This document shows, one piece after another, positions 2,250-31,088 of a DNA stretch of 35,061 nucleotides; position 1 is the stretch's first letter, and every line of letters starts with the position of its first letter. The stretch comes from Gemmataceae bacterium (GTDB lineage Bacteria; Planctomycetota; Planctomycetia; Gemmatales; Gemmataceae). Location: assembly GCA_022614915.1 (NCBI GenBank), contig JAKEHV010000268.1, positions 1 to 35,061 on the forward strand, given 5' to 3'. Both the position numbers and the translations under genes were made by a program. The notes beneath the pieces were generated by a model. The model was not told the origin of the DNA. It ran no database searches and saw only the letters and a program-made list of their open reading frames with translations.

Positions 2250-5177
2250 ATGGCGTGTCCACGGTTTTTCCGGTGGCTCAAGTTCTTCTCCGATTCCGTT
2301 GCGTCGTTGCGAAGCGACCGAAAACTGCAATCTCCAAGTGATCTCTTGCGTTACCGGACAGGACTGTCTGAGCTGGAATCGCGCGAAGCCGCGGGTAACT
2401 TGTTCTTGTTTGATTTAGGACTACTTGGAACCGGCTTGCTGGCGCAGACGAGTCTATCCGCGGGTTTCGAGGCTGAAGAGCGCGCTGGGCAAACGGGTCA
2501 CTTGAGCGTCCTTACGAATGAAACGCATCCGGCACTGACGTTTACTCTTGCGTCATCGATTGACATTTCAACGCCCGAAGACAATCAAGAGAATGACTCG
2601 CAAAGCGCGGCGGCCTCGAGCGCGACCGACTTACTCTTCGCGCGCGAAGAACCAGTCTCTGCGGATTGGCTCGCCGATTTCGACGATCCACTTGGTGAGC
2701 CTGGATTCGTGAATCCCACTCCCGTCTCTGCGGGCGGATCGTCCGGTGGGACAAGCATGCCGGAATCGGCGAGCATTCCGCAAGTCGGCGCTGGTTCCGG
2801 AAACGCCTCAGGTCCAGTAACCACGAGTGGCGGAGCGGCAGGAGGAGGAGGACAAAACAGCGCTGCGCCTCCAACGGCCGATTTCGGACCGGCCCCTGGC
2901 GACTCTGGTGGATCACTCATCACCCCGTTCGACGGCGGCTCCAACTCCCCGCCGCAGGCCAACGACGATTCCTTCAGTGTCGTCCACGATCAAACGCTCG
3001 TGAACTACGTACTTACGAATGACAGCGACCCCGACCAGGATCCCATCACCGTCGTCAGCAACACGAATCCCAGCCACGGCGCCGTTTCCGTCAGCAGCAG
3101 CGGCCAGGTCATCTACACACCAGACACCGGCTTTGTCGGCGCCGATTCGTTCAGCTACACGATTACCGACGGCAGCGCCTTTGATTCGGCGAACGTCCTC
3201 ATCTCGGTGACGAACGAAAATCCTATTGCTGTGGATGACTCGTTCACGAGCGGACACGATCAATTGATCATCGGTTACCTGCTCGACAACGACACGGATG
3301 GGGATGAGGATTCGCTCACGGTAGTGGATCATTCGAATCCCGCTCACGGAGTGGTCACCGTCGAAAGCAGCGGTTCTTTCAACTACACGCCGGTCGGCGG
3401 CTACGTGGGCGCCGATCAATTCAGCTACACCATTTCCGATGGTGTGGCAACGAGTTCCGCGACGGTAACCCTCACTCTCACGAATGAAGCGCCCGAGGTC
3501 ACGCTGACCGAGCCCGAACCGGTTTCTGTCGCTGAGCCGATGACGCTCTTTGGCTCTTTCACCGACCCGAACGACACGATCTACGACAGCCCGTACACAC
3601 TGACGGTGCACTGGGGCGACGGCGGCACCGAACAACACACGATCGCCAGTCCAAGCGCATTCGAATACGAGCACACCTACGCAGCAATCGGCTTCTACAA
3701 CATTACGGTGGAGGTGGAGGACGCCTTAGGCGCCGTCGGCACCGCGACGGTTCAGGCGCGCGTCGCCACCGTCCAGACAGTCGAATGGGTGGCGGTCCAT
3801 AGTCCGCTGGACGCCAACCCCGGCAATGGAACGCCGGGCCCCGTCACAGCTGTGGGACTCCGCATCTTTCCGGACAAGATCACTCCCACAGACGTGCTTG
3901 ATCGACGGAAAGTTGAGATTCGCGCGACGGTGAACCCGGCTATCGCGGGCGTCAAGGTCTATTTCGCCGCAGTCGACGTGGACGATCCCTCTGATAACAC
4001 TTCGCCAGTCGACCAAGAGACTGAAGACGGCAATGAAATCCCCGACAACCGGGGCGATAGCGAATTGCCGACGTTTGGTGCCTGGACTGACGCGAACGGC
4101 GTCGCGCGCGTGCAGTTCGACGTGTCCAGGCAGCCGGGCGACAACTGGCGCGCTGTTGCCTCATGTCGTTTGGGTGACTTGGGCGGCATACGCGGCAAGC
4201 AAAACGACGCGTTGGAACTGCGCGTTGTCGATGGCAACGGCAACTTCCTGCCGACGGCCACGGCACGCGTCTCCGAGGTGCTCACCGTCTGGCGGCGCTT
4301 GCACGTCGAGGTCGATTCGATGGGTCTGGTTGAAGGCAATGAGGTGACCGGCGTGATAATAGACGTTGATTCTCACCCCGATCTTCCGAACGCGAGCATT
4401 GTGACTGTCTCGTCGGGCAGCGTTTTCACTGAACCTGCTGATCTGAATCGGTTTGTCGGGGGCGTCCTCTATGATTTCTTCGGCGCGGGGTTTCGAGTTA
4501 TTGCCAGCGACCTGAGTGATCCAGAGGGAAACTTTGTCCTCTATGTGCGCAATAATCCGGATACAGGCGCGGTGCCGTCGCTCGGTAACTTCGGACTCAT
4601 CGACGATGACTTCCTTAAAGACGGCGACGATGTCCCGATGCCGGACACGAGCACTTTGAATCAAGCGCTGAATGAGGCTTATGTGCAGGTTTTCTTCGAC
4701 GTAGGCGGCACCAATGACAACGTGCCGTTCATGGCGAATGCCGAAGAAGCCGATCTCGAACTCGATTGGAATTCGCGCAGTTTAAATGCAAATGATTACT
4801 GGGTGACCTATTTGCTTGGGGCGTTCCAAGGCTCAACGCAAGTCGATACCGATCCAAACACAGAGGTCGCACTATTGGGACAGAGTGGAGACCTGACAGG
4901 CGGTTCCTGGACATATGCGGAAACAATACGCGATGCCGCTGTCACGATGAATGTCAATCAGGACCTCCTCGCGCGCGAGACCGTAGTGCACGAAATCGGG
5001 CATGCTGTGACACATGAATCTAGCCACCCCGTAACTGGAATCAATGCAAAACTGATGACATTGCCTATTGGTCATGTCTTAGAAGTCGATGGGAGCGTGG
5101 TAACGCACCATGATTGGAGCCGTTTTCTCCCGCGCTATATAGCGCGTATTCGCTTCGTCTTTCACCCCTTCTCGTAA
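2250..5177 (+). CDS. Large secreted cadherin-like/PKD repeat protein with a C-terminal HEXXH zinc-protease motif
   Basis: 975 residues; the ATG at 2250 follows a GGAGG site. The N-terminus has the planctomycete 'L..LE.R' type leader (LSELESREAAGN) in place of a classical signal peptide. A low-complexity Ser/Gly/Pro region runs to about residue 230. Two tandem cadherin-like (Big/VCBS-type) domains follow at about 235-325 and 326-415, each with ANDDSF or AVDDSF, NDSDPDQD or NDTDGDED, and GADSFSYTI or GADQFSYTI. A PKD-like domain (WGDGGTEQHT, then YEHTYAAIGFYNITVEV) covers about 418-510. Beta-rich sequence continues to about 880. H914-E915-I-G-H918 gives a zincin HEXXH motif, with H922 or H926 as possible third ligand and a downstream LMT as possible Met-turn. 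The canonical GxxH spacing is absent, so activity is uncertain. The last 25 codons recur downstream as a duplication remnant. Confidence 0.8.
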   Translation: MACPRFFRWLKFFSDSVASLRSDRKLQSPSDLLRYRTGLSELESREAAGNLFLFDLGLLGTGLLAQTSLSAGFEAEERAGQTGHLSVLTNETHPALTFTLASSIDISTPEDNQENDSQSAAASSATDLLFAREEPVSADWLADFDDPLGEPGFVNPTPVSAGGSSGGTSMPESASIPQVGAGSGNASGPVTTSGGAAGGGGQNSAAPPTADFGPAPGDSGGSLITPFDGGSNSPPQANDDSFSVVHDQTLVNYVLTNDSDPDQDPITVVSNTNPSHGAVSVSSSGQVIYTPDTGFVGADSFSYTITDGSAFDSANVLISVTNENPIAVDDSFTSGHDQLIIGYLLDNDTDGDEDSLTVVDHSNPAHGVVTVESSGSFNYTPVGGYVGADQFSYTISDGVATSSATVTLTLTNEAPEVTLTEPEPVSVAEPMTLFGSFTDPNDTIYDSPYTLTVHWGDGGTEQHTIASPSAFEYEHTYAAIGFYNITVEVEDALGAVGTATVQARVATVQTVEWVAVHSPLDANPGNGTPGPVTAVGLRIFPDKITPTDVLDRRKVEIRATVNPAIAGVKVYFAAVDVDDPSDNTSPVDQETEDGNEIPDNRGDSELPTFGAWTDANGVARVQFDVSRQPGDNWRAVASCRLGDLGGIRGKQNDALELRVVDGNGNFLPTATARVSEVLTVWRRLHVEVDSMGLVEGNEVTGVIIDVDSHPDLPNASIVTVSSGSVFTEPADLNRFVGGVLYDFFGAGFRVIASDLSDPEGNFVLYVRNNPDTGAVPSLGNFGLIDDDFLKDGDDVPMPDTSTLNQALNEAYVQVFFDVGGTNDNVPFMANAEEADLELDWNSRSLNANDYWVTYLLGAFQGSTQVDTDPNTEVALLGQSGDLTGGSWTYAETIRDAAVTMNVNQDLLARETVVHEIGHAVTHESSHPVTGINAKLMTLPIGHVLEVDGSVVTHHDWSRFLPRYIARIRFVFHPFS

Positions 5178-6248: not shown

Positions 6249-6341
6249 GAATACAATAGCTTCGTGCCGCGCCACGATTGGAGCCGCTTCCTCCCGCGGT
6301 ACCTAACTCGCATTCGCTCCGTGATTCAGCCCTTCTCTTAG
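6249..6341 (+). pseudogene. Remnant copy of the 3' end of the large surface-protein gene
   Basis: A short open stretch without a start ends HDWSRFLPRYLTRIRSVI plus QPFS and TAG. The gene ending at 5177 closes HDWSRFLPRYIARIRFVF plus HPFS and TAA. The remnant lies between the two paralogs, exactly where the true gene end lies before the first paralog. It therefore marks a tandem duplication whose left breakpoint fell inside the protease gene near 5095. It has no ribosome binding site and is not expected to be a gene. Confidence 0.85.
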
Positions 6342-6353
6342 AATGAGGTCCGC

Positions 6354-7385
6354 ATGCAAACGCATTCTGCGATGCTTTCTTGCACGCTTGCAGTCGTGCT
6401 TTCCTGCGTAGTGAGCACGTCGGATCTCCCTGGCCAGCCGCCGAAGGCGAAGGTGGACCGTTCAATCACGATTTGCGCAACCAAGGATACCTATCTCATC
6501 GGTGAACCGCTGTTGCTCGAAATCTCTTACAACAACATTCGAAGTGAAAACATTACCGTCCCTGAATCTTGGATAGAAGGCGACGAGCCGCCAATTGAGA
6601 TTCTAGTTTCGGGCGATGGCATCGCCTTCACGCGGTTTCGGTTTGGCTATCCGATTTTGGAAATCTTGGATCGACCGTATCGGACGTTGAAGCCGGGCGC
6701 CAGCTGGCAATATGAGTTGCGACTGCTGTACACTCGATTCCATTCTGGCAGACTTGCCTTTCCAGTAGCAGGAAAGTACTTCCTTAAGGTTCGCAAGGAT
6801 GGGGCGAAACCGAAAGACTCGAGTTTGGATTCCAACGTGATCGGCCTTAAAATCGAAGAGCCAACGGGCGTGGACGCCAAAGTTTGGGAACGTATGCAAG
6901 ACAAGCAAATACTCGAGTTGATCCAGTCGGCCCGCGGCCCCAAGGAAACCGCGCTTGCCGTGGCCGCACTGCTGCGCGAGTTCCCCAAATCGAATTATCG
7001 GCCAACGTTAGGGCATGCCTTGCGCGAGTTCTATTTCAAGCAAGGCTACAGTGTTAAGCCCGAGGGCAAGGAAATCCGCGCAGTCCTGGGTTTCGAGGAC
7101 GTGGGCAGAATCGCTGACAAGCGCCTGGACGCCCGAATTCGTAGTTTTCTGGGCCAGGACAGAACCGTGGAAGACGTGCTCCGCGAACTCTCGCTCCAAA
7201 CGGGCATTCCGGTTGATGCCTCCCCTGAATTGAAGACCAAGGTAGTTCCCACCTCATTTACGATCCAATTGCGAGACGTTCTGCGATCCATAAGCGTCCG
7301 CCTACGCGCGCCGTGGTGGCCGCTGGCCGACGGATATCTGTTGTCGCGCGAGCCGCCGACTGCCGAGTCGAAATCAACCAAGTGA
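6354..7385 (+). CDS. Exported protein of unknown function, second tandem paralog
   Basis: 343 residues; ATG at 6354 with GAGG five bases upstream, a better ribosome binding site than that of its sister gene. It has a signal peptide (SCTLAVVLSCVVSTS) and the same architecture as the protein at 5190: a beta-rich Ig-like middle, a helical LLREFPKSNY region, and an STN-like C-terminus with VLRELSLQTGIPVDASPELK. Both proteins end in SREPP..ESKSTK. Conservation is highest after residue 165 and weaker in the signal peptide and middle, the pattern of an older duplication under selection on the C-terminal half. The family is not recognised. The frame is intact, so both copies are probably functional. 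Confidence 0.75.
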   Translation: MQTHSAMLSCTLAVVLSCVVSTSDLPGQPPKAKVDRSITICATKDTYLIGEPLLLEISYNNIRSENITVPESWIEGDEPPIEILVSGDGIAFTRFRFGYPILEILDRPYRTLKPGASWQYELRLLYTRFHSGRLAFPVAGKYFLKVRKDGAKPKDSSLDSNVIGLKIEEPTGVDAKVWERMQDKQILELIQSARGPKETALAVAALLREFPKSNYRPTLGHALREFYFKQGYSVKPEGKEIRAVLGFEDVGRIADKRLDARIRSFLGQDRTVEDVLRELSLQTGIPVDASPELKTKVVPTSFTIQLRDVLRSISVRLRAPWWPLADGYLLSREPPTAESKSTK

Positions 7386-15337: not shown

Positions 15338-16729
15338 TCATGAGTACAGTTCGATCGCCTTGATGATGTCGTCCAGATCATTCGGCACTTGCACCGCACG
15401 GTTCGCGAAGGTGGCTCGACGCACGCCGCGATGGCCGAGCACTTCGTCAAACGTCTTCTGGTCCGTGCTGTGGTAGGCAACGGTCGCGGTCGGGTCCTTG
15501 AGTTGATGGCCGGTGAGGATGCACACCACGCGCTCGCCGGCGGCGATGACGCCTTCGCGGCGAAGCTTGCGCGTGCCGGCGACGCTGGCCGCGGACGCCG
15601 GCTCGCACCCCAAGCCGCCGGCGCCGACTTTGGCCTTGGCGTCGAGGATTTCTTGATCGCTGACTTCGCGGACCACGCCGCCGCAGCGTTCGAGCGCCCT
15701 TAGCGCCTTAGGCAGGTTGACCGGATGGTTGATCTCGATGGCGCTGGCGATGGTCGCTGCCCGGATCTTTTCCGCGTCCAAGCCTTGGTAATAGCCGTCG
15801 ATCAACTTTTCGTCGGTCCGGCCGTTGTTCCAGCGGACGCCGAAGCGCTCGTACAACTGGAAGAACGTGTTTGCTCCGGCGGCATTGATGACCGCCAGGC
15901 GCGGCACTTTGGTGAGCAGGCCCAAGTCCGCCAGCTCGCCGAACGCCTTGCCGAACGCGCTGACGTTGCCGAGATTGCCGCCCGGCACCACGATCCAATC
16001 GGGCGGCTGCCAGCGCAGCGCTTCCAGCACGCGGAACATGATAGTCTTCTGCCCTTCGAGGCGGAATGGATTGATGCTGTTGACAAGATAGATTCCCAGC
16101 TTGCGGGCTACTTGTTGCACGCGCTGCATGGCGTCGTCGAAGTCGCCGGCAATTTGCACGGTCAGAGCGCCGTGATCGAGGGCTTGGGCCAGTTTGCCGT
16201 AGGAGATCTTGCCGCTGCCAATGAAGATGATGGCCCGCATGAGGCCGGTGGCGGAGCAGAAAACGGCGAGCGATGCGCTGGTGTTGCCCGTGGAGGCACA
16301 GGCGGCGCGGCGGGCGCCGGCCAGGCGTGCGTGCGTGAACGCCGCCGTCATGCCGTTGTCCTTGAAGCTGCCCGAGGGATTCATGCCCTCGTATTGCAAG
16401 AAGAGGCAGCCCGCGTTCAAGCCCACGTACTGCGCCACGCCGTCGGCGCGTTGCAGGATGGTTTGCCCCTCGCCGATGGTCATCACCTTGTCCGGCGGCG
16501 CGAACGGCAATAGCTCGTGAAAGCGCCACACGCCGCTGAAGTGCAACGGATTGCCACGCTCGGCCCATTTCATTTCAAAATCACGCAGCGCGGCAGGCGG
16601 CTGCAACTTGCCCCAGTCATACGCCACGTCCATGAGGCCGCCGCAGCGCGGACAGACGAACGACGTATCGTCCAAGGCGGCGGTCGCGCCGCAAGTGGGT
16701 CGAATACAGCGTTGAAAGATGGCTTCCAT
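15338..16729 (-). CDS. thrC: Threonine synthase
   Basis: 463 residues; the ATG at 16729 follows GGGAG at nine-base spacing. It converts O-phospho-L-homoserine to threonine with pyridoxal phosphate, the last step of threonine synthesis, in the cytoplasm. The N-terminus carries a zinc-ribbon-like C8/C13 and C26/C29 pattern, seen in many long bacterial threonine synthases. The PLP lysine is K123 in [21 protein letters not shown] and the [14 protein letters not shown] phosphate-binding loop follow, with a C-terminal [14 protein letters not shown] segment. The length fits the class. A long palindrome lies upstream and a dispersed repeat directly downstream, so it is probably transcribed alone. A related PLP-dependent lyase is the only serious alternative. 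Confidence 0.93.
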
Positions 16730-16783
16730 TCGCCCAACTCCCGGTGTTGATTTATGGTTTTTTGAGGCAGTGTTAATCTTTTG

Positions 16784-16847
16784 ACACTAGCCCGACGCGC
16801 GAGCGAGGGACCACTAAAAGTCCCTCGCTCGCGCGTCGGGCTAGTGT
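16784..16847. repeat. Perfect 28-bp inverted repeat, first copy of a dispersed element
   Basis: Arms at 16784-16811 and 16820-16847 are exact inverted copies around an 8-nt loop; each contains CTAGCCCGACGCGCGAGCG. One arm recurs identically at 31063-31090. The size, dispersal and absence of coding content suggest a REP-like or MITE-like element. Confidence 0.9.
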
Positions 16848-16905
16848 TTACGTTTCGCGCTCGCTGGACGCTATTGCATGGTTGACGGGAGCACGAAACG
16901 TAAAC
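16846..16905. repeat. Second inverted repeat abutting the palindrome
   Basis: GTTTACGTTTCG at 16846 is inverted as CGAAACGTAAAC ending at 16905, with GCTC/GAGC extending the arms past one mismatch and about 26 nt between. It overlaps the end of the 28-bp palindrome, suggesting one composite element. Confidence 0.75.
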
Positions 16906-17064
16906 AATGTCGCAAAACTGATGACAATCGTCTAAAAATGGGACACTTTTAGGATGGCCATCTTGAGTTTCGGCCGACGTTGAGATGTTTCCAAGAAGTG
17001 AATAAACCTCGGATTTTGCGACGGTTGTTTGAGTTGCGAAAAACGGCGAATCCCGCAGTCGATG

Positions 17065-17081
17065 TGGCACGCGGATTGCTA
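17065..17081 (+). promoter_or_regulatory. Sigma-54 (RpoN) promoter
   Basis: TGGCACG-N4-TTGCTA matches the sigma-54 consensus, with GG (17066-17067) and GC (17078-17079) exactly ten bases apart. Transcription would start near 17091, about 39 nt before the ATG at 17130. It would need an enhancer-binding activator, which is not encoded in the window. Confidence 0.75.
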
Positions 17082-17129
17082 ATATACTTCCCCCACAGGC
17101 CGCACAGATGCCTGCTCCAGAGGTGCACC

Positions 17130-17330
17130 ATGAACGGCGAATACCAAGTGCAAAAATCGGGTCTGGCGGGCATCCACTGGACCACTGTTTGCCGCGGCCA
17201 GGAAACCAAGGCCCGCGAGGTCTTCCTCCGCCAGGTGCAACTCTACTCGGTCGGTCGCTTCCGCCTGGTCAACGACCGTGGCGAAATCCTCGAAGAACGC
17301 AAAGCCGCCCTTCGGCTGTTCGCGAATTAG
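17130..17330 (+). CDS. Small protein of unknown function under a sigma-54 promoter
   Basis: 66 residues; ATG at 17130 with GAGG a few bases upstream. The sequence begins MNGEYQVQKSGLAGIHWTTV and contains ETKAREVFLRQVQLYSVGRF and RLVNDRGEILEERKAAL. It has no signal peptide or membrane helix and looks like a compact mixed alpha/beta cytoplasmic protein. The pattern of a mobile helix, a 'GRFRLVNDRGEIL' strand pair and a terminal helix suggests a small conserved domain, but I do not recognise it. The strong sigma-54 promoter indicates conditional expression. The rhomboid gene lies 137 nt downstream on the same strand, beyond a hairpin. Confidence 0.75.
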   Translation: MNGEYQVQKSGLAGIHWTTVCRGQETKAREVFLRQVQLYSVGRFRLVNDRGEILEERKAALRLFAN

Positions 17331-17354
17331 TCCGTTGCTCGCTTTGTTTGATTC

Positions 17355-17399
17355 TTTGCGCCTTCGCGCCTTGTTGCGTGAGGTCTTACACTCACGCAA
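17355..17399 (+). repeat. Hairpin and GCGCCTT repeat remnant
   Basis: TTGCGTGAG (17374-17382) and CTCACGCAA (17391-17399) form a perfect 9-bp stem with an 8-nt loop. The preceding TTTGCGCCTTCGCGCC resembles the widespread 'TTTGCGTCTTTGCGC..GTGAG' intergenic repeat. It could slow or end transcription between the two genes, but no T-run follows. Confidence 0.5.
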
Positions 17400-17467
17400 G
17401 CCAAAGACATGGTTGCCTGTGGGAAAAATGTGACCTATGCTTCATTTTCCCGACAGGATGCAAAACC

Positions 17468-18304
17468 GTGTTGATTCTTTGGGACCAAAACAAATATCCA
17501 GGCCGCCTGGCCTGGGTCACGTGGCTCCTCGTTCTGGCCAATCTCGGCGTTTTTGTCACCCAGCTAGCCCTAGTAGATAACTTCACCTTCGACCTCGCCT
17601 TAGTTCCTGCCGAGGTCGTCAAGAGCCTGCAATCCGGCCCAACTGATGACCCCTCCCGGCCCGCGCCGCCGAAGATCCTCGTGAAGGAAGGGGACAGCTG
17701 GGTCGAAGAAGCGCAGTTTCGTATCCCGAGGCCGTTGACCTTGATCACATCGATGTTTCTGCACGGCAGTTGGCTGCACGTCATCAGCAACATGTGGTTT
17801 CTGTTGATCTTTGGCAGGAATATCGAGCGGGCGATGGGACCAGTGCTTTATCTCGTCTTTTACCTATTTTGCGGCGTGGCTGGGGGAGTGGCCGACATCC
17901 TCGTCGATCCGCAGTCGACAGTGCCCTACATCGGCGCCAGCGGCGCGATCTCGGGAGTGCTGGGCGCCTATTTGATCGTTTACCCTATCAATAAGATCTA
18001 CGTCTGGCTCATTCTGGTCTTCGAATGGCCCGCGTTCATTGTGCTTGGCCAATGGGTACTCGTGCAATACATCAGCACCTTCGAAGCCTTCGCCGACGGC
18101 AGCATCTACGCAGGCGGCGGCGTGGCCTATTGGTCCCACCTGGCCGGCGTCGCCATCGGCATTCTGTTTGTCATCGTCACCCTGTTTTGGCTGCGACTCA
18201 TGCGGCGCCCGGCGAAACCAGTCGGTGAGGCAGCAACACGCTCATGGCCAAAGAAAGACGTGGCTGAACTCGATCCCTACAAGACGTTCTTGTCTCGAAG
18301 TTGA
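17468..18304 (+). CDS. Rhomboid-family intramembrane serine protease
   Basis: 278 residues from the GTG at 17468, chosen because it opens the family's N-terminal segment (WDQNKYPGRLAWVTWLLVLA) and has AGGA nine bases upstream; the nearby ATG at 17458 is out of frame. The inner-membrane rhomboid core is complete: TSMFLHGSWLHVISNMWFLL (loop 1 and helix 2), FGRNIERAMGPVLYL, the catalytic GASGAISG with S158, and H224 in SHLAGVAIG. A larger insert between helices 1 and 2 (about 50-90) is usual for this bacterial subgroup. It cleaves membrane proteins inside the bilayer; the substrate is unknown. Whether it is co-transcribed with the 66-residue gene is unclear. Confidence 0.9.
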   Translation: MLILWDQNKYPGRLAWVTWLLVLANLGVFVTQLALVDNFTFDLALVPAEVVKSLQSGPTDDPSRPAPPKILVKEGDSWVEEAQFRIPRPLTLITSMFLHGSWLHVISNMWFLLIFGRNIERAMGPVLYLVFYLFCGVAGGVADILVDPQSTVPYIGASGAISGVLGAYLIVYPINKIYVWLILVFEWPAFIVLGQWVLVQYISTFEAFADGSIYAGGGVAYWSHLAGVAIGILFVIVTLFWLRLMRRPAKPVGEAATRSWPKKDVAELDPYKTFLSRS

Positions 18305-30704: not shown

Positions 30705-31088
30705 AGGCGCACTCCAACTCTGTGTGTTTAGATTAGAGGCGGCTGAACAACTCTAGGTTTCTTGCGTGGAGAGATTGGCGCGCAAGTTCAGTGTTTGGCA
30801 GACGCGGGCATCTGCCCTCCTTCGGCCAAGCGTTACCGAGGAACAAAGGAGTCTGCGTAGAAGAGCAAACGGCGAGCCATCCCTGGCGTGGACGAAGGAA
30901 TTGTGCAAGAACACCGAGGATTGGCGTATCAACAAACCTGCCAAGCACTTTGGGAACCCGAATGCAGAGGCGCCAATTTGGTTTTCCGAAAGTAAACGGG
31001 CGCGACTGTCAACGAATAATTACGCTGTTGACACTTGCCTCTTGACACCGGATTCGCTGTATTCCCTCGCTCGCGCGTCGGGCTAGTG
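30705..31088. other. Intergenic region between glmS and the CRTAC1 gene
   Basis: About 380 bp. It holds the glmS leader on its left, two TTGACAC words near 31028-31048, and an arm of the dispersed 28-bp repeat at 31063-31090. No gene and no clear promoter was found; both flanking genes are on the minus strand. Confidence 0.5.

Follow-up and report, generated by a model that had tools for sequence, protein, structure and literature searches.

The −24/−12 promoters of sigma-54 (RpoN) have been described by the consensus tGGcacg/tTGCt (PMC4641369) and, in a second study, by TGGCAC-N5-7-TTGCT (PMC12316311). In Planctomycetia, the second study predicts sigma-54 control of UspA (COG0589), chaperones, proteases, and MscS; no experimentally worked-out sigma-54 regulon for this group was found in the literature searched. 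The window analyzed here, the whole stretch of 35,061 nucleotides, is contig C178 of a draft Gemmataceae genome (G000; 6.1 Mb, 86% complete). It contains a candidate promoter of this type in front of a small gene, P0001, and the features of the locus are as follows.

16906–17064, plus strand: upstream intergenic stretch, the expected activator-binding region (dyad and spaced-word search negative)
17065–17080, plus strand: predicted sigma-54 (−24/−12) promoter, TGGCACGCGGATTGCT (full consensus match; kept before the orthologs within unalignable flanks)
17091, plus strand: predicted transcription start, placed by promoter geometry 12 nt past the −12 C at 17079
17120–17123, plus strand: GAGG, a weak ribosome-binding sequence inside ccagaggtgcaccATG
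17130–17330, plus strand: P0001, conserved small protein of 66 amino acids (open frame, orthologs, dN well below dS)
17468–18304, same strand as P0001: rhomboid protease gene with a GTG start (Pfam Rhomboid, E 1.4e-31)

The candidate site is made up of TGGCACG (17065–17071), CGGA, and TTGCTA (17076–17081), with GG (17066–17067) and GC (17078–17079) exactly 10 nt apart, and it matches all 12 specified bases of TGGCACG-N4-TTGCW. It resembles known sigma-54 promoters in the TGGCACG-N4-TTGCT sequence, in the GG-N10-GC spacing, and in the RpoN and AAA+ activators encoded by its genome, and no difference from them was seen in the window site. The predicted start lies 39 nt before the ATG at 17130, and every element of the site named in the original prediction is present as claimed. 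The accompanying statement that such a match is rare by chance holds for the full pattern TGGCACGN4TTGCW, which occurs once in the window versus 0.03 times expected from dinucleotide shuffles, but not for the looser core, which with two mismatches occurs 50 times versus 46 and is thus at chance level. Across the genome, a pattern search for the exact core motif gave 15 matches versus 16 for the reversed control. The genome-wide count was therefore dropped as evidence for the promoter; the window match by itself is suggestive, and it falls to the orthologs to decide on function. A single RpoN, carrying the RpoN box ARRTVTKYRK, is encoded in this genome, together with approximately 11 proteins whose sigma-54 activation domain is complete; 10 of these proteins contain GAFTGA. 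Several of these activators are response regulators or GAF-domain proteins, and nearly all of those scanned have a Fis-type helix-turn-helix.

The open reading frame at 17130–17330 consists of 66 codons plus a stop codon. Among 95 genomes of the family, orthologs were identified in five other Gemmataceae species, which represent four genera besides that of the window; in a search of 398 genomes of the class for more distant homologs, matches beyond these six species were noise. The protein is 52–67% identical to its five orthologs, with 26 invariant columns. Because substitutions fall mostly at third codon positions and dN (0.07–0.39) is well below dS (at least approximately 0.7, or saturated), the gene is judged to be under purifying selection and hence a real coding gene. 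An AlphaFold model built from the six sequences has a beta-beta-alpha-beta-beta arrangement with a mean pLDDT of 84.5, a prediction that is not deeply supported since these six are the only sequences found. No family in Pfam or NCBIfam (curated cut-offs) or in PHROGs was matched, a sequence search of the PDB returned no relative, and no homologs were found in the phage records, viral contigs, and plasmids searched. The best match in a PDB fold search with the model was AcrIF9 (PDB 6vqv and 7c78), which is not significant (E 0.18, TM approximately 0.5, 11–12% identity). By these searches, P0001 is a small domain specific to this lineage, where it occurs in some Gemmataceae and matches no known family.

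The sequences upstream of the five orthologs were then compared with the window site. Every one carries a GG-N10-GC site (L043 of genome G027, TGGCATGGCGTTTGCC; L044 of G081, TGGCACGGAACGTGCT; L045 of G018, TGGCACACTCCTTGCT; L046 of G080, TGGCACACTGCTTGCT; L047 of G024, TGGCACAGTGCTTGCG) that scores 10–11 out of 12 and places its −12 element 55–116 nt before the start codon. By comparison, 300-nt windows of the same sequences reach a score of at least 10 at a frequency of 0.04 and of at least 11 at a frequency of 0.013. A core base is altered in two of the orthologs, with TGGCAT in one and GTGC replacing TTGC in one. When the sequences are anchored on the site, pairwise identity between species is 0.56–0.94 over its 16 nt, while over the 100 nt located 5' of it identity is 0.20–0.30, approximately the 25% chance level, for every pair but the one from the same genus. 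Since the site is kept with the gene while its surroundings change, function is the best explanation. The ortholog loci likewise have no common neighbor genes except between the two species of the same genus, which argues that the site is kept for the small gene. An apparent neighbor match between L043 and L045 was rejected, as it proved to be the small gene's own reading frame on the antisense strand. The expectation that the site would recur before orthologs was thus confirmed, with the site lacking before none of them, and the reading of it as the sigma-54 promoter of the small gene is borne out by these five loci together with the RpoN and activators of the genome.

It had been suggested that the downstream rhomboid gene is a co-regulated partner, and the promoter could in that case serve a two-gene operon in which the rhomboid protease gene follows the small gene. 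The two genes are on the same strand with 137 nt between them, and no terminator-like site was found on the plus strand in this gap; yet neither a rhomboid gene nor any other neighbor from the window occurs at any of the ortholog loci, and read-through into the rhomboid gene, while possible, would be particular to this genome. We therefore regard the operon as unlikely and the small gene as probably monocistronic, and the suggested partnership is not supported. Less probable still is a sigma-70-type reading, in which the conserved site would be an extended −10 promoter (TTGCTAATATA) with no more than a resemblance to a sigma-54 promoter. An extended −10-like stretch does directly follow TTGC in the window (TGCTAATAT) and in L045 (TGCTATATT), but no sigma-70 match of 9/12 is present in 16700–17520, and all six sites keep TGGCA and GC at a fixed distance whereas the A/T-rich part differs freely. 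A chance resemblance, with the small gene transcribed by other means, is in keeping with the unenriched exact core in this genome but is scarcely credible given that each of the five orthologs is preceded by a site within flanks that do not align, for which background rates give a chance of approximately 1e-8 to 1e-9, an estimate that is rough because the orthologs are partly dependent and the relaxed pattern was fixed after they had been seen.

Having weighed these alternatives, we consider it very probable, on sequence evidence, that 17065–17080 is a working sigma-54 promoter that drives a short transcript for the 66-residue protein alone. RNA polymerase with RpoN would bind this site as a closed complex, which would fire only once one of the AAA+ enhancer-binding activators of the genome had been switched on, and the resulting RpoN-dependent transcript would begin near 17091 and encode only the small protein. 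The site, its retention with the gene across species, and the gene's coding nature were established by computation, as was the presence of RpoN and the activators, and from these we infer the start site and the dependence on RpoN. An activator site had been anticipated in the intergenic stretch upstream of the promoter. None was found there, and no dyad or spaced word common to the window promoter and 28 other candidate promoters rose above shuffled sequences.

Two repeated sequences were noted in the window. Identical copies of the 15-mer TGTCATCAGTTTTGC are present at 5046–5060 and 16912–16926 (minus strand), the latter lying upstream of the promoter, and this 15-mer may be a small repeat or a binding site. 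The 22-mer AGCCCGACGCGCGAGCGAGGGA, noted at 16789–16842 and 31063–31084, builds a perfect long hairpin and has 106 copies in the genome versus 0 for the reversed control; the copies are often tandem, with a unit spacing of approximately 33 nt, and they frequently lie at contig ends. This 22-mer is classed as a dispersed REP-like repeat family.

The core motif was also counted in the other genomes that bear the small gene. If the six gene-bearing genomes are pooled, it occurs 192 times versus 100 for the reversed control (p 4e-8), with an excess in four of the six (40 versus 19 in G018, 38 versus 12 in G024, 19 versus 9 in G080, and 61 versus 25 in G081); in G000 and G027 it is not above the control. 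Sigma-54-type sites precede Usp genes in G024 and G080, and the G024 Usp site and the window promoter have an identical 15-mer, TGGCACGCGGATTGC. Further sites of this type lie before genes for a CBS protein, a Cpn60-family chaperonin (GroEL), an ODP-type flavoprotein, and a formate/nitrite transporter in G024, and before those for a PhoH-like protein and a ferredoxin in G018. A second small orphan family, of 48–68 amino acids and 55% identical across 42 residues, has such a site upstream in both G000 and G024 (L010:1644–1850 and L121:1252–1398). CsbD loci are found behind sigma-54-type sites in two genomes (L006, L007, and L134): in G000 such sites precede CsbD itself and a DUF3309 gene with CsbD behind it, and in G027 one precedes a gene for a 71-residue protein that is in turn followed by CsbD. 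Separately, contig C279 of G000 (L021, L175) encodes a response-regulator-type sigma-54 activator (domain at 6278–6775) approximately 0.6 kb or less from an oppositely oriented Usp gene, which makes it a candidate activator of stress-type genes.

Of 40 CsbD and Usp genes collected by family search, 9 have an upstream site that scores 10 or higher, and none has one for the reversed motif (p 0.0012); when three loci known from the pattern search are set aside, the counts are 6 of 37 and 0 of 37 (p 0.013), modest numbers for an association that was noticed post hoc. The planctomycete stress genes predicted in PMC12316311 and the genomes examined here have in common sigma-54-type sites at Usp, chaperonin, and other stress-type genes. 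Taken with the sites before Usp, CsbD, and chaperonin genes, that prediction makes stress the best guess for the small gene, and we somewhat favor a stress- or starvation-induced role for the 66-residue protein, as inferred from the other genes with the same promoter type. Unlike those stress genes, P0001 is lineage-specific and belongs to no family, and no mention of it was found in the passages of that study consulted. More tentatively, P0001 might have a dedicated and so far undescribed part, as effector or regulator, in a sigma-54-controlled stress response restricted to some Gemmataceae, and its promoter would have moved with the gene between unrelated genomic sites.

In this way, a lineage-specific orphan gene gains a testable mode of control, and individual conserved promoters lend support to the prediction that Planctomycetia use sigma-54 to control stress genes.
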